Positions 13,986 through 44,453 of a DNA stretch of 64,000 nt are shown here, one piece after another (positions within the stretch are counted from its first letter, which is position 1; each line of letters begins with the position of its first letter). Made by a program: the position numbers and the translations under genes. The stretch covers positions 3,162,001 to 3,226,000 of the forward strand of contig NZ_CP087168.1 of NCBI RefSeq assembly GCF_024748615.1, in the 5' to 3' direction. The stretch is from Pseudomonas sp. B21-048. Its GTDB lineage: Bacteria; Pseudomonadota; Gammaproteobacteria; Pseudomonadales; Pseudomonadaceae. The notes beneath the pieces are model-generated. The model made no database searches. It was given only the letters and a program-made list of their open reading frames with translations, and was not told the origin of the DNA.

Positions 13986-14033
13986 CGGCGCTTCAATATC
14001 CTTATACGGTCCGACCGGCACAAAGGGGAATGA

Positions 14034-14548: not shown

Positions 14549-14692
14549 AGCGACCGAAGACCGCGATCGCAAGGCCACCACCACTCGATCCTCCCAAGAA
14601 ACGGACAGAGATCGCCTCGAATCCGGATAGCTGCACTGCACAGAAAGGCTTTCAATCGGGTTGTGCCTAAAACTACAAAAAGGGTGTACCTG

Positions 14693-16078: not shown

Positions 16079-16079
16079 A

Positions 16080-16568: not shown

Positions 16569-16586
16569 CCTGCGGAGCACGCTGTC

Positions 16587-19185: not shown

Positions 19186-19189
19186 GTAT

Positions 19190-20526: not shown

Positions 20527-21314
20527 CAAGCGCCCTCCATGGCCATGCGCCCAAGAAAACTACGGGTGCGCTCATGGCTTGGGTTGTCGATTACCTGCGC
20601 CGAAGGCCCTTGCTCGACAATGTGTCCGCCGTCCATGAAGATCACCCGATCCGCCACATCCCGAGCGAATCGCACTTCGTGGGTCACCATGATCATGGTG
20701 CGGCCCTCTTGCGCCAACTCACGAATCACGGCCAGTACTTCACCTACCAGTTCGGGGTCCAGCGCCGAAGTCGGTTCGTCGAACAGAATGACTTTAGGTT
20801 GTTGAGCCAACGCGCGGGCGATAGCGACCCGCTGTTGCTGCCCACCGGACAATTGCTCGGGATAGACTTCGGCCTTGTGCCGCAGATGGACTTTTTCCAG
20901 CATGGCATCCGCCAGCTCATAGGCCTGCTTGCGCGGCATACCCTGTGCCTTGATCGGCCCCAGCGCGACGTTGTCGCGTACGCTCAAATGTGGCCAGAGG
21001 TAGAAGAGCTGGAACACCATCGCGATCTCGCGTCGCTGCGGAGCCATTTCCCGATCACTCATCAGACGTATGCGTTTACCGTCCTTGATCTGCCCGATCA
21101 ACTCGTCGCCCAGCCAGATATCGCCTCGAGTGGGTTTTTCCAGATAGTTGATGCAACGCAGGCAAGTGGACTTTCCCGACCCGCTGGGGCCGATCAACGA
21201 CAGGGTTTCACCGGCTTTCAATTCCAGGTTGATACCCTTGAGTACTTCCAGATCACCATAACTTTTGTGCAGGTCATGCACTCGCAGCAACGCAGGTTCG
21301 GAGGGGGTCGACAT
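20526..21314 (-). CDS. Polar amino acid-type ABC transporter ATPase
   Basis: A 262-residue HisP/GlnQ-type ATPase with Walker A GPSGSGKST (about 40), Q-loop, signature LSGGQQQRVAIARAL (about 155), Walker B VILFDEPTSALDPE and the switch His in MVTHEVRFA. An insertion near RLMSDREMAPQRREIAM (about 87-104) is common in this subgroup. I chose the ATG at MSTPSEP, which has AAGG upstream and matches family length; the longest frame adds 22 residues. It sits 78 bases after the binding-protein gene and is coupled to the permeases. Confidence 0.92.
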   Translation of the reverse strand: MSTPSEPALLRVHDLHKSYGDLEVLKGINLELKAGETLSLIGPSGSGKSTCLRCINYLEKPTRGDIWLGDELIGQIKDGKRIRLMSDREMAPQRREIAMVFQLFYLWPHLSVRDNVALGPIKAQGMPRKQAYELADAMLEKVHLRHKAEVYPEQLSGGQQQRVAIARALAQQPKVILFDEPTSALDPELVGEVLAVIRELAQEGRTMIMVTHEVRFARDVADRVIFMDGGHIVEQGPSAQVIDNPSHERTRSFLGRMAMEGA

Positions 21315-21392
21315 CTTGGTTAACCTTTTTTTTGTTATAGACATGGCGATGAATCGGCACGGGGCATCAGGCCGACTCATCCGCTCAAGTGC

Positions 21393-22265
21393 TTACTTGC
21401 AGCCGGGCAGTTTCCAGTCCGCCGGGCGGTCGACACCCAGCCTCAGGTCCCTGCCTTCCGGCACATACCAGACATCCTGGGTCAGACCGTAGCGGGCACC
21501 GATCTTGCGCATTTCACAGCTTTTCCAGAGAGACTGGATCTGCTCGTTCACGGCCGCCACCAGCTGCGGGTTGGCCCCTTTATTGAAGCCGTACACCACC
21601 TGGCCCAGCCCCGTCAGCAGAGGGAAATTCGGATCGTTGTCGGTGAAAGCGTTGAAGTGCAGGTGCCACTGCTCGTTGCGGAAAATGGCGTATTGCATGA
21701 CCGGAGGATCGCCGATCACTGCATCGATGCGCCCGGCGAGGAGATCGCGCACCGCGGCATCGGATGTGTCGTACAACGCCACTTGTAACCCCTCGATCTT
21801 GCGCATCTCAGGGATGAACGAGAAACCCGTGATAGTGCCGACCTTCTTGCCCTGCAAATCTTTGAGGCTGCTCCAGTTGGTCTTGTCGGTTTGGGTGATG
21901 CCGTTCTTGAAATAGTGAATCGGGTCGCTCACGGTCATGATCTTCGCGCGCTGCTCGGTCCAGCCCATGGTGCCGGCCATGATATCCACGCGTTTGGCCT
22001 GCACCGAGGCGATGGTGCCGGCCCAGTCCATCAACGCAGGTTTAACTTTCAAACCCAGCTTCTCAGAAATTTGTTGAAGGATTTCACCGTCGTAGCCGAC
22101 CATTCGACTGTCTTGATAACCGGTCCCCGGCATATCGCCACTGAACGCAATTGTCAGGCTTCCCGGCTCTACCGTTTCCAGTGCGAATGCCGGTACCGAG
22201 GCCAGCATGGAGACCAGCAGACCCGCATAGATACCGGCAATACGTTGAACGTTGGGCTTCTTCAT
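21393..22265 (-). CDS. Periplasmic substrate-binding protein, family 3 (SBP_bac_3)
   Basis: A 290-residue protein with a signal peptide ending near SVPAFA and an SBP_bac_3 body (about 30-265): GYDGEILQQISEKLGL, DIMAGTMGWTEQRAKIM and LLAGRIDAVIGDPP. Family members bind polar amino acids, opines or related zwitterions. GAGGAG six bases before the ATG fixes the start; a GTG one codon earlier is also possible. It is the first gene of the operon that runs through the ATPase, two permeases and amidase, and faces the AraC-type regulator across 98 bases. Confidence 0.92.
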   Translation of the reverse strand: MKKPNVQRIAGIYAGLLVSMLASVPAFALETVEPGSLTIAFSGDMPGTGYQDSRMVGYDGEILQQISEKLGLKVKPALMDWAGTIASVQAKRVDIMAGTMGWTEQRAKIMTVSDPIHYFKNGITQTDKTNWSSLKDLQGKKVGTITGFSFIPEMRKIEGLQVALYDTSDAAVRDLLAGRIDAVIGDPPVMQYAIFRNEQWHLHFNAFTDNDPNFPLLTGLGQVVYGFNKGANPQLVAAVNEQIQSLWKSCEMRKIGARYGLTQDVWYVPEGRDLRLGVDRPADWKLPGCK

Positions 22266-22363
22266 CACGTGCTCCTCGATTGTTTTTTTATGAACAGCAT
22301 GGTGTTGGGCAGGCGCTCATCGTATGGTGATCGGCGGTGTAACTGGTTGGATGGTTTGCATGA

Positions 22364-23476
22364 ATGATTGAACATTTGCGACATTTCAGAGATGTACTGC
22401 CCAGGGCCTCCAGCGAAAGCCTCGTGGAAGGTCTTGATAAGGGTCAGGCACGACATCCGCCAAGCCGACGCGGCGCCACCGAGTTGTCTATTGGCATTGT
22501 GTTGTGGCCGCGCTTCCCCTTGCTGTCACTGTCAGGGCTGACCGATGCGCTGCGACATGCCGCCGATACGGGTGATCAGAGCCGTCCGATACGCTGCCAA
22601 TGGAAAGTACTGGGTACCCTTGGGCAAAGAGTCATTTCCAGCTGTGGACTGGATGTGCCTATCGACACTGAGCTCACCCATCCTCATCAATTTGATTACA
22701 TCGTGGTGATTGGTGGGCTGCTTGATTCCCTTGAGGCAGCACCAAAGACGTATCCGGCATTTCTGCATCAGGCAGCAGCCGCTAACGTGCCGTTGATCGG
22801 TCTATGCACGGGCAGCTTCGTGCTCGCTCGACATGGCTTGATGGAGGGACGTACCGCTTGCGTACATGCCTACCATTGCGACGACTGGAAACGTCTGTTC
22901 CCCAGATTGCGCTTTGTCAGCAACAGTGACTTCCTCATCGACAAGGATCGGATCACCTGCGCAGGCGGTATCTCGGTGATTGAGTTGGCCATTCATCTAA
23001 TTGGGCTACATTGCGGCCCGGATCGGGCCGGCAAAGTTGTTCATCAGATGACGGTCGCAAAAAGCAGCTCCGGCAGTTTCGTCGACCGGCGAAAGGCACT
23101 TGGCTACGCCAGCGCTTCGAACAGGCGTCTGCACGAAGCCGTGATGCTGATGGAAAAGCACATGACCGAACCTCTGGACATTGACTCAATCGCAAGCCTT
23201 GTCGGTACCAGTAAACGGCAACTTGAGCGGCTGTTTGTCGCCGAAACCAGTAACACTCCAGCCCAATTCTATCGTCAGGTTCGACTCAGGTTTGGCCGAT
23301 GGCTTCTCATCAGCTCGGATCGACAAATAGGCGAAATCGCTTTCGAATGCGGGTTCGCCGATGCCCCTCATTTCATTCGACATTTTCAGAATATGTTTGG
23401 CATGTCTCCCGGAAAACTGCGCAAAGAGTTGAACCGCCACGGTATAAGTCACCCGGAGGCGGTGCCGAATCAGTAA
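22364..23476 (+). CDS. GlxA-type transcriptional regulator (DJ-1/PfpI + AraC HTH)
   Basis: A 370-residue regulator. The N-terminal half (about 40-210) is a DJ-1/PfpI-like glutamine amidotransferase fold with the nucleophile-elbow pattern LIGLCTGSFVLA (about 145), often non-catalytic here. The C-terminal AraC domain (about 260-355) has two helix-turn-helix parts, including IASLVGTSKRQLERLF and IAFECGFADAPHFIRHF. Relatives control arginine, carnitine, glycine betaine and other nitrogen catabolism. It diverges from the transporter-amidase operon, its likely target. Its end overlaps the convergent dehydrogenase gene by seven bases. No clear ribosome site precedes the ATG. Confidence 0.9.
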   Translation: MIEHLRHFRDVLPRASSESLVEGLDKGQARHPPSRRGATELSIGIVLWPRFPLLSLSGLTDALRHAADTGDQSRPIRCQWKVLGTLGQRVISSCGLDVPIDTELTHPHQFDYIVVIGGLLDSLEAAPKTYPAFLHQAAAANVPLIGLCTGSFVLARHGLMEGRTACVHAYHCDDWKRLFPRLRFVSNSDFLIDKDRITCAGGISVIELAIHLIGLHCGPDRAGKVVHQMTVAKSSSGSFVDRRKALGYASASNRRLHEAVMLMEKHMTEPLDIDSIASLVGTSKRQLERLFVAETSNTPAQFYRQVRLRFGRWLLISSDRQIGEIAFECGFADAPHFIRHFQNMFGMSPGKLRKELNRHGISHPEAVPNQ

Positions 23477-24420
23477 CCTGCTTGCGTATTGACGCTTGCC
23501 GGGATCAAACCGCTGCTGCGAAATGCCTGAATGTTGGATGCGACGATGGCTGATGCGGTTTGATGATGGGTCGGTGCGGAACAATGTGGCAGCACCAACA
23601 CCTGTGGGTGCGTCCACTGCCATTGGTCTTGGGGTAAGGGTTCGACGGCAAAGACGTCCAGCACCGCATGGCCAATATGGCCGCTGTCCAGTGCGCTCGA
23701 CAGCGCTGCGTCATCGATGATCGGCCCTCTGGCAAAATTGATCAGGCTCGCGCCCGCCGGTAACCAGCCGAGGGTTTGAGCGTTGAGCAACCCGGTGGTG
23801 TGCTCGGTCAATGGCAGCAGGCAGATCAGGATGTCGGTCGCGGCGAGCATCGATTGCAATTCTGCAGCGCCGGCGAAGCACTCGACATTCGCCAGTGACT
23901 TGCGCTCGCGACTCCAGCCTCTGACCTTGAAGTTCGCTGCATGCAAACGCTGTGCGGCCGCTTCGCCCAGCACGCCCATGCCAAGCAAGCCGACCGTCCG
24001 CTCTTGAGCGCGCACGGCAGGCAGTGGCTGCCAACGTTTCTGCCGTTGCTGACGGATATAGCTGGGCATGTCGCGATGCAGATACAGCGTCCAGGCCAGT
24101 ACGGCTTCGGCCATGGTTTCGGCGAGTTGCGGGTCGATCAGGCGGACGATCCTCAGTTCAGCCTGAGTCTGCTTCAGGTCGGCAACAAGGCGTTCGACGC
24201 CCGCCCAGACGCTGTGTACCCAGCGCAACTGCGGCAACTGCTTCAAGTCCGCGGGGTTGGGATTGGCCACGATGGCCAGGGTGCACGCGGCTTTATCAGC
24301 ATCATTGAGTTGGCTGAACGTGACAATACGTTCGCCAGGCATCGCCTCTTGCAGGGCTGCGATCCATTGTTGCGTCGCCGGATAGTCAGGCGCAGCGAGA
24401 AACGGAATCGGCGGATTCAT
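23470..24420 (-). CDS. D-2-hydroxyacid dehydrogenase (GhrA-like)
   Basis: A 316-residue NAD(P)-dependent oxidoreductase. The Rossmann part shows VGLLGMGVLGEAAAQRL (about 142-158); catalytic residues are Arg in NFARGP (about 234), Glu in VFAVEPLP (about 263) and His in LPHCSAP (about 281). GhrA-type members reduce glyoxylate or hydroxypyruvate, but 2-oxoacids in general are possible. The ATG overlaps the VOC gene's stop by four bases (ATGA). It is the last gene of the nine-gene operon and could reduce a small 2-oxoacid released from the substrate. Confidence 0.88.
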   Translation of the reverse strand: MNPPIPFLAAPDYPATQQWIAALQEAMPGERIVTFSQLNDADKAACTLAIVANPNPADLKQLPQLRWVHSVWAGVERLVADLKQTQAELRIVRLIDPQLAETMAEAVLAWTLYLHRDMPSYIRQQRQKRWQPLPAVRAQERTVGLLGMGVLGEAAAQRLHAANFKVRGWSRERKSLANVECFAGAAELQSMLAATDILICLLPLTEHTTGLLNAQTLGWLPAGASLINFARGPIIDDAALSSALDSGHIGHAVLDVFAVEPLPQDQWQWTHPQVLVLPHCSAPTHHQTASAIVASNIQAFRSSGLIPASVNTQAGY

Positions 24421-24830
24421 ATGGCATACACCTGCTGCAGATCCGCGAAGCCTTTCACTTCAATCGGGTTTCCAGCCGGGTCGAGGAAAAACATCGTCGC
24501 CTGCTCGCCCGGTTGGCCGGCAAAACGAATGCTCGGCGCCATGACAAATGCAAGCCCCGCCTCGACCAGTCGATCAGCCAGCGCCTGCCAGTCGGGCATT
24601 GCGAGAATCACCCCCAGGTGTGGCATCGGTACCCAATGTTCGCCGACGCGTCCGGTGTTGGTCACGGTGAAAGGCTCGCCAAGGTGCAATGAGAGCTGGT
24701 GACCAAAAAAATCAATATCGACCCAGGTCTCGGTACTCCGCCCTTCCTTGCACCCCAACAACGTGCAGTAGAAATGACGCGATTCATCAAGGTCGCGAAC
24801 GTGATAAGCCAGGTGAAAAATTGACTGCAT
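24417..24830 (-). CDS. VOC-family metal-dependent protein (glyoxalase/dioxygenase fold)
   Basis: A 137-residue single-domain protein of the vicinal oxygen chelate superfamily. Candidate metal ligands are His in FHLAYHVRDL (about 6-10), His in the middle (LSLHLGEP) and Glu in GNPIEVKGF (about 125). The superfamily includes glyoxalases, extradiol dioxygenases, epimerases and resistance proteins, so the reaction cannot be named. GGAG seven bases before the ATG supports the start. It lies 29 bases after the amidase and is coupled to the dehydrogenase. Confidence 0.85.
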   Translation of the reverse strand: MQSIFHLAYHVRDLDESRHFYCTLLGCKEGRSTETWVDIDFFGHQLSLHLGEPFTVTNTGRVGEHWVPMPHLGVILAMPDWQALADRLVEAGLAFVMAPSIRFAGQPGEQATMFFLDPAGNPIEVKGFADLQQVYAI

Positions 24831-24859
24831 AATATTCTCCAGAACAACTGAATGTTAGG

Positions 24860-26221
24860 TCACACGCGGTTTTCGACACTTCGTAAAAGTCGTTGCACGG
24901 ACTGAGCCACACTTAGCAACGGCTCATCGCGGCCATGCCGATCGATCAACATCAACCCCACAGGGGCTGTGCCGGGTTCATGGCAAGGGATCGAAACGGA
25001 GCAGCCATCAAGAAAATTGGCGAGCATGGGATTGCGCAGCAATAGCAGGTTGAAGTGTTGGAAATCCCTGTTGTCTGCCACTTGGGAGAAGGTCGGTGCG
25101 ATGATCGGGACCGTGGGGCATATCAACAGATCCACGTCCTGCATGCGCCGCTGCACACGCGTGATCCAGTCCCGGCGAGCGTTACAGGCATCCTCATAGT
25201 CAGCCTGGCGGTACAACGCACCGTGCTCGATACGCGCCCGTACATTGGGGTCGTACTGATCCGCACGGGTGCGCAATATCTCCTGATGCAAGGCATAAGC
25301 TTCATACGCCACAATCGCTCCCCGGCGATTGATCGTGGCCACTTCGGTCAACTCATCAAGCGCCATCTCCCGCAGCTCGGCGCCGGCATCGTGCAAGCGC
25401 TTCAATACTGCCGAATACGTCTGCGCCACGTGCTGATCGAGGCCATCGAGCACCAGGGTCTGGGGCACGCCGAACTTCACGCCACGCAGATTGATTTCAG
25501 CGGGCAGGCGGATGTCTGTTCCTGCAACGATGCTATCGATAATCGCGCAACAGCCCGCGTCAGGCGCCAGTACTCCGACTGAGTCGAGGCTCTTGGACAA
25601 CCCAAACACGCCCCTGCCATTGACCCTCGATGCGCTGGGTTTGAAGCCGCTAATGCCGGTCAAGGCCGCAGGAATCCGGCACGAGCCACCGGTATCGGTA
25701 CCGAGCCCCGCCGCCGCCATCCCGTCAGTGACAGATATCGCCGCCCCCGAAGATGAGCCGCCGGGGATGCGCTTGAGTGCCCGCTCGAAGGGGTTGGCCG
25801 GCGTCCCGTAATGGGGATTGAGGCCAATGCCGGTATAGGCAAACTCGCTCATATTGGTTCGGCCGATGATGATCAAGCCCGCGGCCTTCAGTCGCGCAAC
25901 GACGAAGGCGTCCTCGTGGGCCGGCGGTGCGCTGGATAGCACCCAGGAGCCGGCGGCCGTGACTTGCCCCGCCACGTCGAACAGGTCCTTGACCGAGACC
26001 ACGAGCCCCGCGTAAGGCGACATCTGTTGGCCCTTTTTCCGCCTGGCATCGACCGCATCCGCCCGCATCCGGGCGCCTCTCACATCAATATGCAAAAAGG
26101 TGCGCGCACCTTCACCGTCTGGATCGAGTGCGCGTTCCAGGCAGGTTTCAAGCAGCGCGCGGCTGGTGGTTCGACCGCGCGCCAACTCAATACGCAATGA
26201 CTCCAGCGACATCATGCTCAT
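24860..26221 (-). CDS. Amidase-signature hydrolase (second of the region)
   Basis: A 453-residue amidase-signature enzyme. The catalytic Lys is in SVKDLFD (about 77), the cis-Ser in GGSSSGAA (about 152) and the nucleophilic Ser in GTDTGGSCRIPAA (about 176). It is clearly different in sequence from the amidase at 17758, so it is not a recent duplicate. Several Met codons cluster at the start; the ATG at 26221 has GGAG about ten bases upstream. The 108-base gap before it contains a 7-bp GC-rich hairpin (26261-26280). In the operon it probably opens an amide or carbamoyl intermediate. Confidence 0.87.
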   Translation of the reverse strand: MSMMSLESLRIELARGRTTSRALLETCLERALDPDGEGARTFLHIDVRGARMRADAVDARRKKGQQMSPYAGLVVSVKDLFDVAGQVTAAGSWVLSSAPPAHEDAFVVARLKAAGLIIIGRTNMSEFAYTGIGLNPHYGTPANPFERALKRIPGGSSSGAAISVTDGMAAAGLGTDTGGSCRIPAALTGISGFKPSASRVNGRGVFGLSKSLDSVGVLAPDAGCCAIIDSIVAGTDIRLPAEINLRGVKFGVPQTLVLDGLDQHVAQTYSAVLKRLHDAGAELREMALDELTEVATINRRGAIVAYEAYALHQEILRTRADQYDPNVRARIEHGALYRQADYEDACNARRDWITRVQRRMQDVDLLICPTVPIIAPTFSQVADNRDFQHFNLLLLRNPMLANFLDGCSVSIPCHEPGTAPVGLMLIDRHGRDEPLLSVAQSVQRLLRSVENRV

Positions 26222-26329
26222 GATGGACAAGCTCCAGGATCGATCGGGCGATTAGCCAGGGCCGACCGCTCGGGGTCGGCACCGGCAAGCAGCAGGCGGC
26301 CAATTGACAGACGCCATGGAGCTGCGGCT

Positions 26330-27154
26330 TCACGTACCGATGCGCAGCGGCGCGTTCATTTTGCGTAGCAGAGCCACCACACTCTGCGCGGTGATGCGAC
26401 CGGTCTTGGGGTTGTCCGAGGGGATGTTCTCGATGGTCATGGTCAGGCTCGCCGAATCGGCATCGACCTCGATCAAATGAGTATTGCGGGTCACCGACGG
26501 GTCTGCCCAGATTTCCAGGGTCGTGCGGTCAGGGCCGATCCCCGCCAGCGATAGGGCCACCACCACATTGAGGTTGGCCGGAAACCCGCGAGCGGCCTCG
26601 CGTGCACTGCCCTTGAACACGCGTTTGGGCTTGTCGAGCCCTTCGATGCTGATCAAGTTCTCCAGCAGATAAGGCGCACCCACCAGGCCACGAGGTGGCT
26701 TGCGCGTGATCATTCGTACGGAGTGAATTACGCCCTCCGCCGCTGCGGTCACTGCATCCAGCCCAAGCAAGGCACCGGTGGGCACAAGAATCTGGCCACC
26801 ATGCAGCCGCGCCAGGTCGATCAGGTGCGGGTTTTCCAGCAAGGCGCCGGAGCTGAGTACCACCAGCTTTTTGCCGGCACTCAAAACGGGCAGCGCAATC
26901 TGCGGCAACAGCGCCGCGGGTGCGCATTCAATGACCACATCGCTGACCTGCGCCAATTCATCCAGGTCCAGCAGCGCCGGTGGATTCTTCAGGTTGGCCA
27001 ACACCCCTGCTGCGCGCTCGGGGTTGCGTACGGTGATGCCCACCAGGCGGATTCCGGGGATGCCTGCGTCGAAGGTTCGCGCCAACGAGGCACCGACAGC
27101 GCCCAGGCCGACGATGCCGATGCGCAAATCGGAAGAATATAGGCTAGTGGTCAT
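26330..27154 (-). CDS. Aspartate dehydrogenase-like protein (DUF108/NadX family)
   Basis: A 274-residue protein with an N-terminal NAD(P) fold (GIVGLGAVGASLARTF, about 13-28) and the family's C-terminal domain: VPTGALLGLDAV (about 125), FKGSAREAARGFPANLNV (about 187-204) and NPKTGRITAQSV (about 248). Known members oxidatively deaminate L-aspartate or, in catabolic loci, related amino acids; some feed NAD synthesis. Here the linkage is to amide hydrolases and importers, so a catabolic role on an amino acid or imine is more likely than NAD synthesis. Its ATG overlaps the deacetylase stop by four bases. Confidence 0.85.
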   Translation of the reverse strand: MTTSLYSSDLRIGIVGLGAVGASLARTFDAGIPGIRLVGITVRNPERAAGVLANLKNPPALLDLDELAQVSDVVIECAPAALLPQIALPVLSAGKKLVVLSSGALLENPHLIDLARLHGGQILVPTGALLGLDAVTAAAEGVIHSVRMITRKPPRGLVGAPYLLENLISIEGLDKPKRVFKGSAREAARGFPANLNVVVALSLAGIGPDRTTLEIWADPSVTRNTHLIEVDADSASLTMTIENIPSDNPKTGRITAQSVVALLRKMNAPLRIGT

Positions 27155-28062
27155 GCTGGGGCTCCCTGAGAGCTATCGTTGAAATCCGGCGCAATCTGCT
27201 GCGCATAATGCTTGGCAACTTGCCCGGCGGTGGTGAACCAAACGGCATCGTCCCGGCGCTTGATGTGTTCAAGCAGTTTGCGCAAGGCTTGTAGCCGAAA
27301 CGGCTGACCCATGATGAAGGTGTGCAGGGTCATGCCGTAGACGAGGGACTGCTGGGTGGACTGGACCAGCATTTCATCGAAATTGGCGATCGCCATTTCC
27401 GCGAAGGCCGGTGCGGTTCCGTGGTGCAGAACGACCATGGGCACATCGTTGACTTCATGCGGGTAAGGCAGGCTTAGCAGCTTGCCTTCACGGGTTTTCA
27501 TCCATACCGGCTGGTCATCCATCGGCCAGTCCAGCGTGTATAAATAGCCGGCTTCTTGCAGCAGGTCTTCGGTCACGGCGCTGGGGTTGGCACCGGGGCT
27601 CATCCAGCCGGCGGGCTGTAAGCCGCTGTGTTGCTTGATCGATTCGGTCGCCGAATGGATCAACTGCCGTTCCTGCTCTTCTGACAAACCGTTCTGTATT
27701 TCGGAGTTACTGCGCCCATGGGCAACGATTTCCGCTCCGGCGTCTACCAGTGCCTGTACCAGCTCAGGGCAGTGCTCATAGCATTCAGTGTTGAGCAGCA
27801 CCGTGAGCGGAATGTCCAACTCCTTGCACAGTGCAAGAATGCGCCAGCCGCCGACGCGATTGCCGTACTCGCGCCAAGCCCAGTTGTAGGTGTTCGGTTG
27901 AGAAATACCGGGCGAGTAAGACAGCCCGAGCCCGCCGCTGCCGTAGGAAAAATGCTCGACGCAGAGCGCGACATAAAACGCCAGTCGCTTGCCCTCCGGC
28001 CATTGGAAATCTGCGCGTGACTCTATGCCTGAATAAGCGAAACGATTAGGTCCAGGTAGCAT
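27151..28062 (-). CDS. CE4/PuuE-like polysaccharide deacetylase-family hydrolase
   Basis: A 303-residue cytoplasmic (no signal peptide) NodB-homology protein of the PuuE/allantoinase branch. The pattern FAYSGIESR, YNWAWREYGNRVGGWRIL, EIVAHGRSNSE (about 124) and MSPGANPS (about 154) matches that branch. The classic metal motif TFDD and HxxxH of sugar deacetylases is absent: the equivalent places read VLLNTECYEH and AHGRSN. Such proteins open cyclic ureides or imides, or deformylate, rather than act on polysaccharides. The start chosen has AAGGGGA upstream; the longest frame adds 18 residues. It follows the importer genes by 57 bases. Confidence 0.85.
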   Translation of the reverse strand: MLPGPNRFAYSGIESRADFQWPEGKRLAFYVALCVEHFSYGSGGLGLSYSPGISQPNTYNWAWREYGNRVGGWRILALCKELDIPLTVLLNTECYEHCPELVQALVDAGAEIVAHGRSNSEIQNGLSEEQERQLIHSATESIKQHSGLQPAGWMSPGANPSAVTEDLLQEAGYLYTLDWPMDDQPVWMKTREGKLLSLPYPHEVNDVPMVVLHHGTAPAFAEMAIANFDEMLVQSTQQSLVYGMTLHTFIMGQPFRLQALRKLLEHIKRRDDAVWFTTAGQVAKHYAQQIAPDFNDSSQGAPA

Positions 28063-28119
28063 GAGCAAGTCCCCTTTATGACAGTTCTTGAAGGAGTGGG
28101 AGCAACCGTTGGCCAATGG

Positions 28120-29091
28120 TCACGGGGTGTAACTGGCAGGCGCCATGACCTGGTCCAGGTTGATTGTTGCCACGTCTTGGGGCGAGATTTTCAGGGCGGG
28201 CAGCGACACGACTTTTTCGACGCGTTGCTTGTGCGCTGCCGCAACGGCCAGGCGCAAGGCGGAACGCCCCTGCTCGACCACCTGCTGCACCGAACTGCAC
28301 ACCACCTCGTTGTTGGCCAACAGCTCCCGGGTGGTCGGGCTGAAGTTAGAGGTGGAAACCTTGACTTGCTCCAGACGGCCCGAGGCACGCAGCGCGGCCA
28401 CCGCACCTGCGGCCATGTCTTCGGTGGCCGAGTAGATGCCTTTGAGGTTGGCGAATCGCTGCAACCAGTCTTCGGTGGTATTGAGCGAGGCGTTGCGGTT
28501 GTCTGCCAAGCGCGATTGCGCTACCACGTTGATCCCGGGGAATTTGTCTTTGAGGGTCTGGCGAAAACCCTCGGCGCGCAGGTCCGACCACGCTTGCCCG
28601 GCGGGACCTGCGAGCATTGCCACATCGCCCTGCCCTTGCAGCGCCTCACCGAGGCATTCGGCCTGCATGCGACCCATGTCGTAATGATCGGCGGTGACAA
28701 TGGAGGTCAGGTGCTGGCTGTTGGGCGGCGACGAAATACCGATCACCGCAATCCCCTGGCGCACCGCCTGATCGACCACCGCGCGCACCGCGTCACCATT
28801 GGTTGCGCCGACGACGATGGCTCCGACACGTCGCTGGATCAATGACTGCAACTGGGAGATCTGCTGGGCGACATTGCCATCCCCGCCAGCACTGAGCTTG
28901 ATCAGTTTGACGCCCTCCTTGCTCGCCTCGTCCTGCGCACCATAGGCGCTGGATATCCAGAAAGACTGCGACAGGCTTGGCACGGCATAACCGATCGTCA
29001 ACTCCTCGGCGCCCGCTCCGGCGACGCACGATAGGGTCACGGCAAGCATTGCAAGTGGCGCACGCCAAGGCTGTATGAACGTCTTCATCAT
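28120..29091 (-). CDS. Periplasmic sugar-type binding protein (Peripla_BP_4)
   Basis: A 323-residue protein with a signal peptide ending near AGAGAEE and a ribose-binding-type fold: SFWISSAYGAQDEA, QISQLQSLIQRRVGAIVVG, GRMQAECLGEAL and a hinge near YSATEDMAAGA. TorT- and RbsB-like proteins share it, and ligands outside sugars are common. The first ATG overlaps the permease stop (ATGA). Together with two permeases and a double ATPase it forms a complete importer. Confidence 0.88.
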   Translation of the reverse strand: MMKTFIQPWRAPLAMLAVTLSCVAGAGAEELTIGYAVPSLSQSFWISSAYGAQDEASKEGVKLIKLSAGGDGNVAQQISQLQSLIQRRVGAIVVGATNGDAVRAVVDQAVRQGIAVIGISSPPNSQHLTSIVTADHYDMGRMQAECLGEALQGQGDVAMLAGPAGQAWSDLRAEGFRQTLKDKFPGINVVAQSRLADNRNASLNTTEDWLQRFANLKGIYSATEDMAAGAVAALRASGRLEQVKVSTSNFSPTTRELLANNEVVCSSVQQVVEQGRSALRLAVAAAHKQRVEKVVSLPALKISPQDVATINLDQVMAPASYTP

Positions 29092-30056
29092 GATTCACCG
29101 TATGCGGTAGAGGAGGAAAAAAGCCGCAGGATCAAACGATCCAGGCCGCCAGCAACGAGAATGATCAGGCCCATCACGATCTCCGCAATGAACGGTGACA
29201 CCCCTTCGATATTCAATGCGGTCTCCAGCGCCTGGATCAGCAACACGCCGAAAAACACTGGCCAGACGCTCGCCGTCCCGCCCTGCAATGCGGTGCCGCC
29301 GATCACGGCCGCGGCCACCGACTGCAGCGCCCAACTGACGCCTTCGGTGGGTAAGCCGGTGCCGGTCTTGCAAAAGAGCACGGCGCCGGCCAGGCCCGCC
29401 AATGCGCCACAGGCCAGATAGGCGATGCACGTCACCCGGCGACTGTCGACGCCTACCAGCGACGCGGCCTGCGGGTCGCAGCCGACCATGAAGAGGTGCC
29501 GCCCGAGGGTGAATTTCTTCAGGATCAGCCCGACCAGCAGCATGCAAATCAAGGCCGGGGCCAGCAGTAGCGGGATCCCCGCGACGTTTTGAAAGGCCAG
29601 GTCTGTCAGTGCACTGGCGTCGATGGGCACCACCGGTTGACCGTCATCGGAAATCAGCCGCGCCAGGCCTTGAGCCGCGATCATGCTGCACAGTGTCGCG
29701 ACAATCGGCTGCACCCGAAGGAAGGCAATCAGCAGCCCATTGAGGCCACCGAACAGCAAACCGGTCACCACCGCGAGGGCGATCGAGGGCGTGCCCAGCC
29801 AATCCATGGTCAGTGCCGCGACGGTACTCGAACAGGCCGCGACCGCCCCCACCGAAATATCAAAGCCGCGCACCAGCATCACCAACATCTGCCCCAACGC
29901 CAGCAGCGCGAGGATGGCGGCTTGCGAGCCGATGTTTTGCAGGTTGCCCAGGCTTGCGTAATCGGCAACCAGGGCCCCGGCCATCAATAAAACCAGGAGC
30001 AAAGCACCGGGGGCCACCAGAAAACGTGCCTGGCGGTTGATCGTTGATGCCTTCAT
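29088..30056 (-). CDS. Ribose-type ABC transporter permease (second)
   Basis: A 322-residue RbsC-like permease (BPD_transp_2) with eight to ten membrane helices. Family patterns include LVRGFDISVGA (about 60-70), GLLIAFLRVQPIVATL and VSWALQSVAAAVIGGTALQGG (in two parts, about 235-260). The start overlaps the preceding permease gene by four bases. It is not a close copy of that permease, so the membrane part is probably a heterodimer. Confidence 0.9.
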   Translation of the reverse strand: MKASTINRQARFLVAPGALLLVLLMAGALVADYASLGNLQNIGSQAAILALLALGQMLVMLVRGFDISVGAVAACSSTVAALTMDWLGTPSIALAVVTGLLFGGLNGLLIAFLRVQPIVATLCSMIAAQGLARLISDDGQPVVPIDASALTDLAFQNVAGIPLLLAPALICMLLVGLILKKFTLGRHLFMVGCDPQAASLVGVDSRRVTCIAYLACGALAGLAGAVLFCKTGTGLPTEGVSWALQSVAAAVIGGTALQGGTASVWPVFFGVLLIQALETALNIEGVSPFIAEIVMGLIILVAGGLDRLILRLFSSSTAYGES

Positions 30057-31039
30057 TGAGCGTTGCCCCTGAGCAGATGGATGCAGCGTCGACGAACGTT
30101 GGGCATTTGCGGCAGCACCACCGCGGCACCGATAACCAGCGCCATCAGCAACTGCTGCCAGGCCGAAGTCAGGTTGAGCAGCACCACAGCGTTATTGAGC
30201 ATGGCGATGATCAGCGCCCCGCATACCACCTGCACTGCAGAACCGCGTCCGCCATTCAACGGAATCCCGCCAATGGCACAGACCGCGATGGTGGCGAACG
30301 CCAGGTCGGGATAAAGATTGGGCTGACCGGAGCCAACGCGGCTGGTCAGAATCGCCCCGGCCAGTGCGCAAAACAGCCCGGCGACGATATAGGCCAGCAA
30401 CACCATGCGGCGTGCCGGCAGCCCGGCATTCAGCGCGGCGTTGAAGCTGGTCCCGATCAGGTACCAGCTGCGCCCGACCAGCGTGTACCGCAACAGGCCA
30501 TGCAGGCTCAGTACCGCCAGCAGTGCAAGGATGATCGGCACCGGTATACCCGCGACGTGCCCGCTGCCCAGCCACAAGAAGCCCGGCGAAGGTGCGGCGT
30601 CCAGCGGCATTCCGCCGGACAGCAGCGACGCCAGACCATGCAGCACCAGCAACATGCCCAGGGTCACCAGAAAGGCCGGAAGCTTCAGGTACGCGATCAG
30701 TAAACCGTTGCATAAGCCGACCAGCACCGCGACACAGATACCGCCGGTAAATGCCAGTGCGACACCCAGCTCGGGCGCCAGTATCACGGTCACAACGCTG
30801 AGCAGCGCGACCGCCGAGCCCATTGAGAAATCGATTCCGCCGACGATCAGGATCCCGGTCTGCCCGCAGGCCGCAATCAGCAGAATCGAGCCGACACGCA
30901 ATACGTTCTGCAGGTTGTCCACGGACAGGAATCTCGGCACGAACAATACACACAAGACAAACACCAGCAGCGGCACGGCAATCACACCGATCCGCGAGCC
31001 CAGCGCAATCGCCGGACGCTGTTTGATCAACGTCGTCAT
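30053..31039 (-). CDS. Ribose-type ABC transporter permease (first)
   Basis: A 328-residue RbsC-like permease with GILIVGGIDFSMGSAVAL (about 63-80), LIAYLKLPAFLVTLGML (about 113-130) and FATIAVCAIGGIPLNGGRG (about 240-258). I use the ATG that shares one base with the ATPase stop (TGATG) rather than a GTG two codons earlier. It pairs with the next permease in the same importer. Confidence 0.9.
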   Translation of the reverse strand: MTTLIKQRPAIALGSRIGVIAVPLLVFVLCVLFVPRFLSVDNLQNVLRVGSILLIAACGQTGILIVGGIDFSMGSAVALLSVVTVILAPELGVALAFTGGICVAVLVGLCNGLLIAYLKLPAFLVTLGMLLVLHGLASLLSGGMPLDAAPSPGFLWLGSGHVAGIPVPIILALLAVLSLHGLLRYTLVGRSWYLIGTSFNAALNAGLPARRMVLLAYIVAGLFCALAGAILTSRVGSGQPNLYPDLAFATIAVCAIGGIPLNGGRGSAVQVVCGALIIAMLNNAVVLLNLTSAWQQLLMALVIGAAVVLPQMPNVRRRCIHLLRGNAQ

Positions 31040-32529
31040 CAGCACGCTCCCACCATCATTGAAAGGACTGCATCAGTTTGCGCGTCGGCCATCATCCGGC
31101 CTGCGACCTGATGGGAGGCGACCACCAGCAACTGATGACACAAAGTGTTCACCTCCAGCAGATCGGACGACACCACGATGATCGCAATGCCACGACAGGC
31201 CAGTGCACGAAGCGCTTGATGAATGCTTTCGCGGGCCCCCACATCCACCCCTCGGGTCGGCTCCAACACCACCAGGGCCCGTAGGTTCGGTAGTACCAGG
31301 TTGCGCAAGAACAGCAGCTTTTGTTGATTGCCACCGCTGTAATGCGCCGCGTCCAGATCTAGCCGTGGGGGGTTGAGATTAAATTGAGCGATCAAGGCGT
31401 CGAACGGAGCGGCCTCCTCGCGCAAGCGCAGGACGCCCCAGCTCGAAAAAACACGCAAGACTGATGCCGAGGCGTTTTGCAGCGCGGACAAGCCGAGGAA
31501 CAAACCATCGGCATGTCGATCCGAGGGCACGTAGCCAATACCGGCGCGCATTGCCGACTGGCGATCATTGACTACCTCGGACGTTGCATTGAGCGAGACC
31601 GTCCCGCCGTGGCCGCTGGCCGCACCCGCCAGCACCTCGCCCAGACGCAGGGCGCCAGAACCGGCGACACCGACGATACCGAGCACTTCACCCTGGTGCA
31701 CGCAAAGCGATATCGGTTGCGCCGTGGGGGTCAGCCGGATGTCCTTGGCCTCAAGCACCACCTCACCTCGGGTACTCACGCACAACGCTTGTGGCTCAAA
31801 GGTTTGCCCGAGCATGTGCTGGACGATCTGCGCCGCTGAAATGTCGTCACGGGCAGCGGCATTCACCACCGTCAGACCGTCGCGCAGAATGGTCACGGCG
31901 TCCGCCATGCGCTTGATATCGTCGATCTTGTGCGAGATGTAGAGAATCGCCGTGCCTTTGGCGCACAGCACCTGCAACGCCTGATGCAGGCGATCGGCTT
32001 CCCTGGCGCCCAGGGCGGCGGTCGGTTCGTCGAGAATCAGCACCGAACAGCGCCGGCCCACGCCACGGGCGATTTCCAGCAACTGCCGCTCGCCCAGAGA
32101 CAGCTCATCGACCAGGCTGTCCAGCGATACATCGAGGCCGACCAGGCTCAGCACTTCAGTCGCTTGCTGGCGATCCAGGCAGTTGTTCCGGGCCCACGAA
32201 CGTTGCGCGCTACCCAGGCCAAAGGCACTCAGGTTTTCAAGCACGGTCAATGGGGTGAACAAAGTGGAATGCTGATAAACCGGAACCACGCCCTGTTTCA
32301 ATGCATCACGCACCGAACTGAAGACTACCGGCTGCCCGTCCAGCACCAGTGCCCCGCCATCCGGGCGAATGGCGCCGACCAGGATTTTGACGAATGTCGA
32401 TTTTCCTGCGCCGTTCTCCCCCATCAATGCGTGAATCTGCCCAGCTTTCAGCACCAGGTTCGCATCGCGCAGAGCGCAGGTGGTGCCATAGTGTTTGGAA
32501 ATTCCTGACGCCTGAAAAATGGTTTTCAT
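31039..32529 (-). CDS. Ribose-type ABC transporter ATPase (two ATPase domains)
   Basis: A 496-residue RbsA/MglA-like protein with two nucleotide-binding domains. The first (about 1-235) has Walker A GENGAGKST, signature LSLGERQLLEIARG and Walker B LILDEPTAAL. The second (about 250-496) has a degenerate Walker A (VGVAGSGALRLGE) but keeps YSGGNQQKLLFLRNL and VVLEPTRGVDVG, as is usual. I chose the ATG at MKTIFQASG because the upstream extension looks non-coding. It is the first gene of the nine-gene operon and faces the LysR gene across 163 bases that hold a perfect palindrome. Confidence 0.9.
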   Translation of the reverse strand: MKTIFQASGISKHYGTTCALRDANLVLKAGQIHALMGENGAGKSTFVKILVGAIRPDGGALVLDGQPVVFSSVRDALKQGVVPVYQHSTLFTPLTVLENLSAFGLGSAQRSWARNNCLDRQQATEVLSLVGLDVSLDSLVDELSLGERQLLEIARGVGRRCSVLILDEPTAALGAREADRLHQALQVLCAKGTAILYISHKIDDIKRMADAVTILRDGLTVVNAAARDDISAAQIVQHMLGQTFEPQALCVSTRGEVVLEAKDIRLTPTAQPISLCVHQGEVLGIVGVAGSGALRLGEVLAGAASGHGGTVSLNATSEVVNDRQSAMRAGIGYVPSDRHADGLFLGLSALQNASASVLRVFSSWGVLRLREEAAPFDALIAQFNLNPPRLDLDAAHYSGGNQQKLLFLRNLVLPNLRALVVLEPTRGVDVGARESIHQALRALACRGIAIIVVSSDLLEVNTLCHQLLVVASHQVAGRMMADAQTDAVLSMMVGAC

Positions 32530-32644
32530 TGTAATTAGGCTCTTCCAATTCTGGGTTTGCACGCCCCAGCGGGCATTGGTCGCCGGCTGATGGGGTGATC
32601 GTAGGGCCGACCTGCGCGGCCTGACAAACAACTTGTTGCACCTC

Positions 32645-32669
32645 TATGCATGAGCCAGAATCATGCATA
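32645..32669. promoter_or_regulatory. Perfect 25-bp dyad, candidate LysR operator
   Basis: Arms TATGCATGA and TCATGCATA are exact reverse complements separated by 7 bases. It lies 23 bases before the chosen LysR start and 115 bases from the divergent ATPase start, where a LysR-type regulator normally binds. It contains the T-N11-A pattern. Its position over the earliest possible LysR start codon (32663) also argues for the later start. Confidence 0.6.
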
Positions 32670-32692
32670 AACCTTTCCCAGGTGGTGCCCGC

Positions 32693-33673
32693 ATGTCGCC
32701 TCAGTTGCCCCCGCTTGCTGCGCTCAAAGTGTTCGAAGTCGCCGCCCGTCATTTGTCTTTCACCGACGCCGGCAAGGAACTGTTCATTACCCAAAGCGCC
32801 GTCAGTCGCCAAATCCGCGCCCTTGAATCCTTCCTGGGCTGCAAGCTGTTCGTGCGCATGACCCGGCGCATTGAGCTGACCGATGCCGGCAGCCAATACA
32901 TGCAGAGCATTCAGGCCGCGTTTCAGGCCATCGCCAAAGCCACTACCAAAGTCAGGAACAGCAAGGACCCGCAGATAGTGACGGTCAACGTGCTGCCGAC
33001 GCTCGCCACACTCTGGCTGATGCCACGCCTGGGCAAGTTCACCCAGGCTTATCCAGACATTGAGCTACGCCTGATCACCTCGATCCATCCGGTGGATTTT
33101 CATTCAGGCACCGTCGACGTCGCCCTACGGGTGGGGAGGCTGCCGGGCAAGGTCTATCAGAAGAACCGGCCGCGCATAGAAATGGAGATGGTCGAAGATT
33201 GGGCCGGCGTCAGGGCTGAGCCGTTGTTTGCCGACGTGCTGGTGCCGGTCATTGCCCGTCGCCTACTGTCCCAGGGCGCACCGCTGGAGACGCCCAAGGA
33301 TCTGCTGCATTACCGGCTGATAAATACCTCAAGCCGCAAGCATGCCTGGCCTGACTGGCTTGGGCAGCACAAGCTCAATTACGAAAAGTTCAAGGAGACG
33401 GCGGATTTCGGGCACTTCTTTATTGCGTTGCAGGCGGCACGCGATTGCAAGGGCGTGGCGATCGTGCCACTGGTGCTGCTCCAGCAATGTGATTTTCGCC
33501 ATGAACTGCAGTGCCCTTTCGAGCCAGGGCTTGAGAGTGCCGGGGAGTATTACCTGCTGACCGGCAAAGACGCGGCGGAGGACCGCGCCCTGAGATTGTT
33601 CTGCAAATGGGTACAGAGTGAAGCGGCGCAGATTCGTGACCTGGCGAGAAAGATCATTCATGAAACCAAGTGA
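32693..33673 (+). CDS. LysR-family regulator (GcvA-like)
   Basis: A 326-residue LysR protein. The N-terminal winged helix (about 5-62) shows LAALKVFEVAARHLSFTDAG, LFITQSAVSRQIRALE and LFVR; the effector domain (about 90-300) has the GcvA-like spelling VNVLPTLATLWLMPRL and DIELRLITS. GcvA-like members often control amino acid or amide catabolism. AGG ten bases before this ATG and the palindrome over the earlier one favour this start. Divergent orientation makes the nine-gene operon its probable target, with the downstream exported RidA gene possibly co-regulated. Confidence 0.9.
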   Translation: MSPQLPPLAALKVFEVAARHLSFTDAGKELFITQSAVSRQIRALESFLGCKLFVRMTRRIELTDAGSQYMQSIQAAFQAIAKATTKVRNSKDPQIVTVNVLPTLATLWLMPRLGKFTQAYPDIELRLITSIHPVDFHSGTVDVALRVGRLPGKVYQKNRPRIEMEMVEDWAGVRAEPLFADVLVPVIARRLLSQGAPLETPKDLLHYRLINTSSRKHAWPDWLGQHKLNYEKFKETADFGHFFIALQAARDCKGVAIVPLVLLQQCDFRHELQCPFEPGLESAGEYYLLTGKDAAEDRALRLFCKWVQSEAAQIRDLARKIIHETK

Positions 33674-33824
33674 ACTCCATCACGCATGCCCTCAGCTCAT
33701 GCCTGTGTGCAATCAAATCGTTTGTCAGTGCATGAGCACCTGCCGATGATCGGTTGCTGCGCCGCAATCCCTGATGACAGGACTGCTCGGCGCGGCAATG
33801 CCAAGACATCAAAGGGGAACTCCG

Positions 33825-34340
33825 ATGCGTGTTGCAACCTTCGCTATCGTACTAACTGGAATGCTGACTACCATGACTACCCAAGCCAGTGACACAATTG
33901 TTCGTCACCTGAACCCCGCCAGTGCCAACGAGCCTTGGGCTCGGGAGTTCGCCGAAGCCATCGAGGTCCCTGCCAATGCCAGGCAGATCGTCCTCAGCGG
34001 GGTCGGGCCTCAGCTTGCCGACCCAAGCGCCGCAGCCGGCTCGATCAAGGCCTACGGCGACACCAAGGCGCAAACCCTGAGTGTCATCAAGCAGATCGAG
34101 GCCACACTGAAGCGTCACGGTTACACCCTGGGTGACGTGGTGAGCATGCAAGCGCTTGTCGTCGGCGACCCGGCGTTGAACGGAGAGGCCGACTTCGAGG
34201 GGTTCTCCGAAGTTTACAACCAGTACTTCGGAACGCAGGCCCAGCCTTACGTGCCTGCGCGTACCCGCGCTCAAGTCATACGCCTGGTACCGCCGGGCTG
34301 GTTGGTGGAGATCACGGTTACAGCGATCAAGGCGCAGTAA
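33825..34340 (+). CDS. Exported RidA/YjgF-family protein
   Basis: A 171-residue protein with a signal peptide (about 1-22, ending near TTQASD) followed by a RidA fold. Family elements include QIVLSGVGPQL, GDTKAQTLSVIKQIEATLKR, GYTLGDVVSMQALVVG and PARTRAQVIRLVPPG, where the first Arg of PARTR aligns with the deaminase Arg of RidA. RidA proteins hydrolyse reactive enamines/imines; several subfamilies are periplasmic or of other activity. AAGGGGA upstream of the ATG fixes the start. It follows the LysR gene by 151 bases that hold nothing I recognise. Confidence 0.87.
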   Translation: MRVATFAIVLTGMLTTMTTQASDTIVRHLNPASANEPWAREFAEAIEVPANARQIVLSGVGPQLADPSAAAGSIKAYGDTKAQTLSVIKQIEATLKRHGYTLGDVVSMQALVVGDPALNGEADFEGFSEVYNQYFGTQAQPYVPARTRAQVIRLVPPGWLVEITVTAIKAQ

Positions 34341-34484
34341 CGCCACGCCTGCAATTGAATTTGACCTGACAGTCACGAACGTAAATCCGGTAACTGTCAG
34401 ATCAAGTCTGAGATACCACTCAGCTAACTGATGCTATCGCGATTGCTTGAGAGAGCCGTACCTCCGAATACAGCAATCACTCCA

Positions 34485-41870: not shown

Positions 41871-41883
41871 TTCAAACTCCCTC

Positions 41884-44448: not shown

Positions 44449-44453
44449 GACCA

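Follow-up and report, generated by a model that had tools for sequence, protein, structure and literature searches.

The window analysed here is a stretch of 64,000 nucleotides from Pseudomonas sp. B21-048. Its open reading frames bear out the nine-gene operon claimed in a preliminary description: on the minus strand, from 32529 down to 23470, lie genes for the ATPase of an ABC importer, two permeases, a binding protein, a PuuE-like NodB protein, an aspartate dehydrogenase (AspDH)-like protein, an amidase, a VOC protein and a 2-hydroxyacid dehydrogenase (Table 1). With the start codons that we chose, the overlapping joints described there recur as 4-nt overlaps at four of the eight joints and a 1-nt overlap at another, the remaining three being gaps of 57, 108 and 29 nt, and the family assignments agree with Pfam and NCBIfam. 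The lysR and ridA genes lie beside the operon on the plus strand. Scans for sigma-70 promoters and terminators gave results at or below chance level.

Table 1. Features of the module (positions in the window).
Feature	Position	Strand	Basis and remarks
Module common to other Pseudomonas	23464..34351		blastn; 93-97% DNA identity; L041 copy without ridA
2-Hydroxyacid dehydrogenase, R231/E260/H279	23470..24420	-	PF02826; best NCBIfam match GhrA, below cut-off
VOC-superfamily protein	24417..24830	-	PF00903; seen only in Pseudomonas version, 3/80 loci
Amidase-signature hydrolase, K78-S157-S180	24860..26221	-	PF01425 E 6e-77; NF005460 595 bits, cut-off 447
Aspartate-dehydrogenase-like protein, H226	26330..27154	-	NF009825 426.3 bits, cut-off 253
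NodB-fold (PuuE-like) putative ring hydrolase	27151..28062	-	PF01522; E36, H115, N119, D206, H247
Periplasmic binding protein	28120..29091	-	Peripla_BP_4, PF13407 E 4.7e-54
Importer permease 2	29088..30056	-	PF02653; 4-nt overlap; synteny
Importer permease 1	30053..31039	-	PF02653; 1-nt overlap with ATPase gene; synteny
ABC importer ATPase, first operon gene	31039..32529	-	ORF and start choice; two ABC_tran domains (PF00005 twice)
Second operator element ACAAGTTGTTTGT	32624..32636	-	overlaps -35-like TTGTCA of operon promoter
Operator ATGCATGA-N7-TCATGCAT, T-N11-A type	32646..32668		0 mismatches; conserved in relatives
LysR-type regulator, divergent from operon	32693..33673	+	PF00126, PF03466
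Decayed operator upstream of ridA	33682..33704	+	3 mismatches
Second operator element TCAAATCGTTTGT upstream of ridA	33713..33725	+	composite pattern match
RidA-family protein, R146	33825..34340	+	PF01042 E 1.6e-14; signal-peptide-like N-terminus

By blastn, three other Pseudomonas carry blocks matching positions 23470-34351, 23464-34351 and 23449-33752, and their DNA flanking the block, where available, had no match to the window there. The nine operon genes, lysR and ridA (eleven genes) are a compact, self-contained and movable module. Because the shared block stops before them, glxA, the amino-acid importer and the second amidase fall outside the unit, and antABC was ruled out as a member on the same ground; the earlier start at 22265, which would include glxA and reach as far as the amino-acid importer, and the tie of GlxA, this importer and the second amidase to the operon were accordingly given up. 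We found no convincing terminal repeats that would mark the module ends as those of a mobile element. Base composition proved uninformative as a sign of transfer, the G+C content of the block (60.8%) lying within the range of eight other pieces of the same genome (57-62%).

The divergent promoter region carries a composite operator in which the palindrome ATGCATGA-N7-TCATGCAT is followed, about 16 nt on, by TTTGT. As the palindrome overlaps an upstream alternative start of lysR (32663), the start was taken at 32693. A T-N11-A palindrome by the divergent promoter, with a second element near the -35, is the arrangement of a LysR-type regulon; the promoter-like match itself (32627-32598) is at chance level. 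In the 5.7 Mb of the genome the composite pattern occurs at only two places, before the operon and before ridA, and the homologues of the latter site have one mismatch in L040 and two in L039. The palindrome alone is not specific (with up to three mismatches, 17 places in the genome versus 3 for the reversed control). Across 1,476,246 bases of 80 loci there are 29 operator sites with at most one mismatch, placed before the importer ATPase (23), before ridA (5), before an ALDH-TPP pair (1) and nowhere else, and at 28 of them TTTG[TC] follows 15-17 nt on, towards the target. Relatives among the alpha- and betaproteobacteria have the operator ahead of the operon as well, and one operator is common to most proteobacterial versions seen, although it was not found at the operon in L066, L067 and L085. 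The strict composite pattern matched five of the ten genomes scanned (out of 25), the others departing from it in the letters of the operator or in the second element. The control by LysR that had been proposed thus receives strong support from the conserved composite operator, and we predict that LysR binds this operator and that a pathway ligand induces the operon.

The importer, previously called ribose-type, deserves that name by family and loses it at the pocket. Of the 27 core loci outside Pseudomonas, 25 have an ATPase homologue at 44-51%, and L082 and L088 have one at 33-35%. In an alignment of 31 binding proteins (the window and 30 loci) many pocket positions are invariant in every row and mostly unlike those of ribose binders: at the ribose-contact positions, relative to 2ioy, S-S stands in place of D-R and S-N in place of F-D, with further changes besides, whereas F44 and Q269 are retained; S120, S121, S248 and N249 do not vary in any of the 31 rows. 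With most of these positions altered, ribose was set aside as the substrate. In two actinobacterial versions (L077, L089) an NCS1-family permease is present, with no such ABC importer in the stretch examined; carriers of hydantoin, allantoin and uracil belong to this family. The L077 protein scores too low for the NCS1 cut-off of NCBIfam, and no solved structure matched it.

In Pfam the hydrolase matches PF01522 (Polysacc_deac_1) alone, not the amidohydrolase domain of the hydantoinases in the amidohydrolase superfamily. Its model (mean pLDDT 79.5) is nearest to the PuuE allantoinase 3cl6 (TM 0.78), and with the Pseudomonas PuuE structures (PDB 3cl6, 1z7a) it shares the NodB fold, the Glu/His/Asn-Asp/His positions (E36, H115, D206 and H247 in the motif alignment) and the want of a metal motif, a signature that is invariant across 18 rows, window included. 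Alignment and model together thus give a NodB fold with a Glu/His active site of the metal-less type, the absence of metal being predicted; in place of the metal residues described for HpPgdA, D12/D14 and H86/H90 (D-x-D / H-x3-H), the hydrolase has E36 and H115-x3-N119. It differs from PuuE in sequence (~26-33% identity), in scoring 125.2 bits on the allantoinase profile TIGR03212 against a cut-off of 424.6, and in a genomic context unlike purine breakdown. Allantoin was set aside as the substrate on account of this score and of a separate PuuE-like gene at 3774451 of the genome.

Like the L-aspartate dehydrogenases TM1643 and that of A. fulgidus, the AspDH-like protein has the domain pair, passes NF009825 and carries H226, which we take to be the catalytic histidine; at least 93% of the 43 rows (the window and 42 loci) have this residue, which is also the commonest in five outside rows. 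The protein matches the counterparts that adjoin the hydrolase in other taxa at 50-69%; among 118 further genomes of the genus, 7 have copies, which it matches at 33-34%. Its activity on L-aspartate is putative. The amidase has the Lys-Ser-Ser residues K78, S157 and S180, presumably the amidase-signature triad. The hydroxyacid dehydrogenase scores 205 bits against the GhrA cut-off of 403. Its pairing with VOC as a tail was encountered in Pseudomonas alone (the window and 3 of 80 loci), a dehydrogenase at 46% occurring without VOC in L088, and in other lineages RraA, with or without an SDR, or a TPP enzyme and an aldehyde dehydrogenase (ALDH) replace the pair. The RraA-family protein, absent from the window, resembles oxaloacetate decarboxylase/4-carboxy-4-hydroxy-2-oxoadipate aldolase by PF03737 and by model, but not by its LigK score (69 bits; cut-off 304.5), and a phylum survey with it gave a match in 1 of 398 genomes. 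As for the exported RidA said to follow LysR, the gene is there and its N-terminus, compared by eye, is signal-peptide-like, as in several lineages, but ridA does more than follow lysR, being preceded by its own decayed operator.

A synteny survey, suggested earlier, showed the gene set to be modular: 30 of the 80 best-matching loci share a core of importer, NodB-fold hydrolase, AspDH-like enzyme and, usually, amidase. The module ranges over Pseudomonas, Azospirillum, Bosea, Ancylobacter and Pandoraea, and some actinobacteria have it without LysR and its operator. AspDH directly follows the hydrolase in 28 of the 30 core loci. The amidase is present in 23 and missing from five Bosea-type loci, L050 (cut by the contig end) and L088; L050, L052 and L056 have none of the exit enzymes, and L078, L080 and L083 have nitrile hydratase near the hydrolase. 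Gene distances are correlated (r 0.77-0.94 over 29 loci, inflated by shared ancestry). In the tree the rows from Pseudomonas, four in number, cluster together next to rows from actinobacteria, but this join is not strongly supported (94/83), too little to name a donor for the Pseudomonas copy. The claim that no described pathway has exactly this set stands in so far as no publication on it was found in the open-access literature searched, and needs amending in that the core is widespread and modular.

On balance we favour, with somewhat better than even confidence, a self-contained module that breaks down a small compound with a nitrogen ring, most probably one of hydantoin or imide type giving rise to an amino-dicarboxylic acid; the amide or cyclic-nitrogen catabolic unit proposed earlier is thus upheld as the likeliest reading. 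With inducer present, LysR would activate the operon and ridA through the conserved composite operator; the importer would take up the compound, the hydrolase, judging by fold and active-site signature, would open the ring at a C-N bond, the amidase would remove the remaining amide or carbamoyl nitrogen, and the AspDH-like enzyme would oxidise the amino-dicarboxylate to the imino acid and thence the 2-oxo acid. In Pseudomonas the hydroxyacid dehydrogenase may dispose of the latter, and in other lineages RraA-family enzymes (usually with an SDR) or the TPP enzyme and ALDH; the exchange of these genes is plain from synteny, their chemistry a proposal. RidA would hydrolyse a reactive imine or enamine and, in this genome, probably works extracytoplasmically. 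Were the amino acid plain aspartate, neither it nor oxaloacetate would call for an SDR, RraA, TPP/ALDH or hydroxyacid dehydrogenase of its own, which makes some other amino acid more probable.

This ring-compound reading draws on the core synteny, the operator placement and the two-only composite sites, on the NCS1 permease of two actinobacterial versions, and on the residues that the hydrolase shares with PuuE and lacks from HpPgdA. Bacterial hydantoinase/carbamoylase systems likewise open a ring and then remove the carbamoyl group, although known hydantoinases belong to amidohydrolase or ATP-dependent (5-oxoprolinase-like) families and the hydrolase to Polysacc_deac_1. Against it count that no gene fixes the substrate, the missing amidases and exit enzymes, the operator's absence at three operons, the weak L077 assignment, nitrile hydratase, which falls outside the scheme, and a signal-peptide-like RidA, which fits poorly simply after a cytoplasmic AspDH.

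A precedent for the favoured reading, and a possible though unlikely alternative to it, comes from nicotinate breakdown in Aspergillus nidulans, where, in the parts of the published account considered here, a NodB-fold imidase (HxnM) and then an amidase-signature amidase (HxnN) act in a route ending in 2-hydroxyglutarate. By analogy, a substituted succinimide or glutarimide would become a half-amide and, through the amidase, a diacid, the hydroxyacid dehydrogenase handling a 2-hydroxy or 2-oxo diacid; L118, with the hydrolase adjoining an amidase and no AspDH in the stretch examined, would suit this. Yet the hydrolase is closer to PuuE by sequence and model and differs from HxnM in metal-motif type, as judged from HpPgdA, the solved relative of HxnM; AspDH would have no role unless the imide bore an amino group; and the hxn gene roles given in those parts include no AspDH, ABC importer or LysR.

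We also consider, tentatively, an undescribed cross-phylum hydantoin-type route with a metal-free NodB-fold hydantoinase distinct from PuuE, a modular 2-oxo-acid exit and possibly the missing carboxymethylhydantoinase and ureidosuccinase genes. Narrower and more doubtful is a special case of the favoured reading, with 5-(carboxymethyl)hydantoin or dihydroorotate as substrate, opened to N-carbamoyl-aspartate, relieved of its carbamoyl group by the amidase and converted by AspDH to iminosuccinate/oxaloacetate. Hydrolase, amidase and AspDH fit in this order, PuuE opens a hydantoin-type ring, AspDH has its family score and H226, and the second-best solved relative of the amidase is biuret hydrolase; but VOC, hydroxyacid dehydrogenase, SDR, RraA and TPP/ALDH would be superfluous, and the titles and abstract openings of the open-access literature searched revealed no bacterial catabolic gene set. 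To our knowledge carboxymethylhydantoinase (EC 3.5.2.4) and ureidosuccinase (EC 3.5.1.7) have no sequenced genes, which this special case, if true, would supply.

Ring opening is not the sole possible reaction, since NodB-fold enzymes are mostly deacetylases and the relative ArnD is a deformylase. A hydrolase acting as linear amidase or deformylase, in a module degrading an N-acylated amino-dicarboxylate or a sugar-like amide, would also accord with the binding protein's solved relatives, most of them named as sugar binders; the invariant PuuE-like signature, the altered ribose contacts and the NCS1 permeases make it quite improbable. A chance adjacency of genes serving separate pathways, suggested by the mixed enzyme families and the lack of a described joint pathway in our search, is hardly credible given an order and operator conserved across Alpha-, Beta- and Gammaproteobacteria and a single block with differing flanks in Pseudomonas.

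Solving the module once would annotate an enzyme set now called allantoinase, chitooligosaccharide deacetylase or sugar importer, and with the operator one could test across whole genomes which genes belong to the regulon and would have a reporter at hand for screening substrates. The module could also show that the metal-free active site of PuuE type serves a second purpose. Another PuuE-like subfamily is represented by a Pseudomonas gene (L010) whose neighbours, viewed by eye over 3.8 kb, are of other kinds.

The operon's anatomy (nine genes of the families listed in the table) proved largely right in the preliminary description on gene calls and domain matches, while its extent proved wrong, as the description had placed a GlxA regulator, an amino-acid importer and a second amidase with the operon. 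In blastn comparisons with three other Pseudomonas loci carrying relatives of the PuuE-like hydrolase (L039, L040 and L041), the window gave one long match to each, 23470-34351 at 95.6%, 23464-34351 at 97.0% and 23449-33752 at 93.4%, the last without ridA; the single further match was of 99 bp (48986-49084), in L040. Beyond this block the window flanks had no match in the DNA compared, either on the dehydrogenase side (~6.3 kb of each locus) or on the ridA side (0.4, 3.7 and 4.3 kb, respectively). Because the match at 93-97% ends there and the flanks of the three Pseudomonas differ, the segment from the hydroxyacid dehydrogenase gene to ridA is a single transferable module. The block shared by the three stops before the GlxA regulator, the amino-acid importer and the second amidase, which, like antABC, are local neighbours only. 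The operon's hydrolase is 98% identical to one from Pseudomonas typographi. Some match to it at E 1e-30 occurs in 187 of 298 genomes of the genus; besides the window's own gene, all among the matches listed are 30-35% identical and are therefore taken as other PuuE-like proteins.

Coordinates and domain content of the features (window positions unless a locus or genome is named)
Feature	Position	Strand	Details
Nine-gene operon	32529 to 23470	-	eight joints: 4-nt overlap (four), 1-nt overlap (one), gaps of 57, 108 and 29 nt
Importer genes of operon		-	ABC_tran (twice), two BPD_transp_2 permeases, Peripla_BP_4 binding protein
Enzyme genes of operon		-	Polysacc_deac_1 (PuuE-like), Asp_DH_C, Amidase, Glyoxalase/VOC, 2-Hacid_dh_C
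PuuE-like hydrolase	27151-28062	-	NodB fold
lysR	32693-33673	+	LysR; opposite strand to operon
ridA	33825-34340	+	Ribonuc_L-PSP; opposite strand to operon
Palindrome in lysR-atp1 gap	32646-32668
Second PuuE-like gene, own genome	3774451-3775131
Nitrile hydratase alpha subunit, L080	7393-8229
Nitrile hydratase alpha subunit, L083	4392-5204
Nitrile hydratase alpha subunit, L078	14009-14623
antABC-like genes	14663-17618	+
Amidase with amino-acid ABC importer	17758-22265
AraC-type regulator	22364-23476		DJ-1/PfpI domain
Protease and exporter genes	34485-48248	-
NRPS-like and receptor genes	1-14021
Sugar importer and glucosidase genes	50318-61034
Transposase ORF	61951-63024	+	DDE_3 and helix-turn-helix domains

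To place the module among its relatives, an 18-row alignment was used as query pattern on species genomes; at least 590 of the matches (590 of 598) were relatives, and the best 80 loci of these were fetched and their gene content read from a tblastn table. The AspDH-like gene lay no more than 10 kb from the hydrolase in 43 of these 80 and directly downstream in 36, and the importer ATPase was present in 30, every one of which had AspDH (30/30). In this set of 30 core loci, the binding protein adjoins the hydrolase in 27, and the amidase is found in 23, RraA in 20 (with an SDR alongside in 18), RidA in nine, a TPP enzyme with an ALDH in four, a hydroxyacid dehydrogenase in four and VOC in three. 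LysR occurs in 29 (≥40% in 27, 37.6% in L066 and L067), L085 having none. Of the 80 best loci, 37 lack AspDH; contig edges cut some of the 37, and 18 bear Rhodococcus, Rhodococcoides or Williamsia in their titles. The hydrolase family thus has roles outside this setting as well.

Control by LysR, claimed in the preliminary description, is supported by an operator conserved before the importer ATPase gene (atp1), ridA and an ALDH-TPP pair. The lysR-atp1 gap contains ATGCATGAGCCAGAATCATGCAT, and the motif ATGCATGA-N7-TCATGCAT is found again in this gap in most relatives. The 80 loci (1,476,246 bases), several of them near relatives and some the source of the motif itself, hold 29 sites at ≤1 mismatch, of which 23 precede the importer ATPase, five precede ridA (L040, L042, L045, L046 and L047), one precedes the ALDH-TPP pair (L069) and none lies at any other position. 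A second element, TTTG[TC], begins 15-17 nt past the palindrome on the target-gene side in 28 of the 29 sites (ATTGT in L056), and its aligned region approximates ACAAATCGTTTGT, a short inverted repeat in itself. Palindrome and second element together have the bipartite layout typical of sites for LysR-type activators, and we regard them as a putative operator.

The more independent share of this evidence comes from the ridA and ALDH sites and from the genome-wide specificity. When 25 whole genomes (the strain's own and those of 24 core loci) were scanned, 21 carried the motif at ≤1 mismatch (24 sites, with the same letters as those in the loci), and a reversed-pattern control gave 0 sites. 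The genomes of L065, L073, L076 and L082 were without such a site and had versions with 2-3 mismatches at the expected places; no site was found at the operon in L066, L067 or L085. Within the strain's own genome, a single contig of 5.71 Mb, the composite CATG-N9-CATG-N15-21-TTTGTC occurs in exactly two places, one ahead of the operon and one ahead of ridA. With 3 mismatches, the window's ridA palindrome is decayed, and the palindrome alone is common at that level (17 places in this genome against 3 for the reversed control; two such matches in 11 of 100 shuffled copies of the window). The case for the ridA site therefore rests on its position, the better palindrome copies in L039 and L040, and the second half, intact in the window.

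Among PDB relatives of the hydrolase, PuuE allantoinase (2e-30) is followed at a distance by HpPgdA (3e-15), and the AlphaFold model (mean pLDDT 79.5) best matches 3cl6 (TM 0.78). E36 aligns with a PuuE glutamate, H115, N205-D206 and H247 are common to both, and the hydrolase lacks the metal residues described for HpPgdA (D12, D14, H86 and H90). An identity as allantoinase is not accepted by NCBIfam (125 bits against a cut-off of 424.6), and a second PuuE-like gene exists in the genome, separate from the operon's since the two are 33% identical. These PuuE-like residues, the failed cut-off and the separate gene therefore led us to the label PuuE-type putative ring hydrolase. The HxnM/HxnN pair of Aspergillus nidulans (PMC9304392) shows that action of a NodB-fold imidase and then of an amidase-signature enzyme is a real pathway logic. 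There the closest structural relative of HxnM is given as the metal-binding HpPgdA, whereas the operon's hydrolase is without the HpPgdA metal residues.

By domain make-up, the importer belongs to the ribose/CUT2 kind. When its binding protein was aligned to 2ioy, the nearest solved relative, most ribose-contact positions (those of E. coli RbsB) were changed, F44 and Q269 being kept, and W45, G95, S120, S121, W168, S248 and N249 were among many surrounding positions that did not vary in any of the 31 rows (30 loci plus the window). Changed contacts amid invariant surroundings thus make a common ligand other than ribose probable for all 31. The actinobacterial L077 and L089, in which no such ABC importer was found over the stretch examined, carry an NCS1-family permease directly after RraA (above the Pfam and below the NCBIfam cut-off; no solved structure matched that of L077). 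This suggests a nucleobase- or hydantoin-like ring as the candidate substrate.

The AspDH-like protein lies above the NF009825 cut-off of NCBIfam, with H226 and its neighbours kept, and the K78-S157-S180 set is present in the amidase, which exceeds the NF005460 cut-off. Candidate consumers of the 2-oxo acid differ by lineage among the core loci: VOC and hydroxyacid dehydrogenase in Pseudomonas, the latter also in L088, RraA (PF03737) in 20 loci, mostly with SDR, and a TPP enzyme (acetolactate-synthase-like) with an ALDH (closest to succinate-semialdehyde dehydrogenase models, below their cut-offs) in L066, L067, L069 and L082, the last additionally with RraA and SDR. None was found in L052, L056 or L050, a locus cut by a contig end. 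Because plain oxaloacetate would need no such exit enzymes, the amino acid handled at the AspDH step is probably substituted or different from aspartate.

RidA has a signal-peptide-like start, read by eye, in the window and in five of the 11 loci compared (L039, L040, two Bosea and a Cupriavidus); the Azospirillum, Mesorhizobium and Poseidonocella proteins have none. The occurrence of such a RidA in the module across several genera (the window, L044, L053 and L076) hints that an imine or enamine step may be periplasmic.

Several features do not fit the proposed scheme, among them VOC, to which it assigns no step, the Bosea loci, in which no recognisable amidase was found within the stretch examined, and nitrile hydratase genes. 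The closely related actinobacterial bins L080 and L083 have these last genes immediately upstream of the hydrolase. In the betaproteobacterial bin L078, which carries 5-oxoprolinase-like genes as well, they are ~3 kb downstream of it. The nitrile hydratase may provide a second way into the pathway.

Taken together, the results support and sharpen the preliminary description's reading of a cyclic-nitrogen or amide catabolic operon under LysR. No description of the gene set was found among the titles and abstracts listed from an open-access library, which leaves out most subscription papers and all preprints.

Elsewhere in the window, the antABC-like genes (AntA at 948.7 bits against the NCBIfam anthranilate 1,2-dioxygenase cut-off of 671.9) are adjoined by the amidase with its amino-acid importer and lie near the AraC-type regulator, and may form a separate amide-to-anthranilate unit. 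The protease and exporter genes resemble a locus for a type I secreted protease: they encode a C39-type ABC exporter, HlyD, an outer-membrane efflux component and a 2510-aa protein that combines RTX repeats with a subtilase domain and a P-domain. NRPS-like and ABC exporter genes (by reading) with a TonB-dependent receptor are probably a siderophore locus, and sugar ABC importer, alpha-glucosidase-like, MFS, porin and LacI genes (by reading) probably an alpha-glucoside locus. The transposase ORF near the end of the window is IS630-like.
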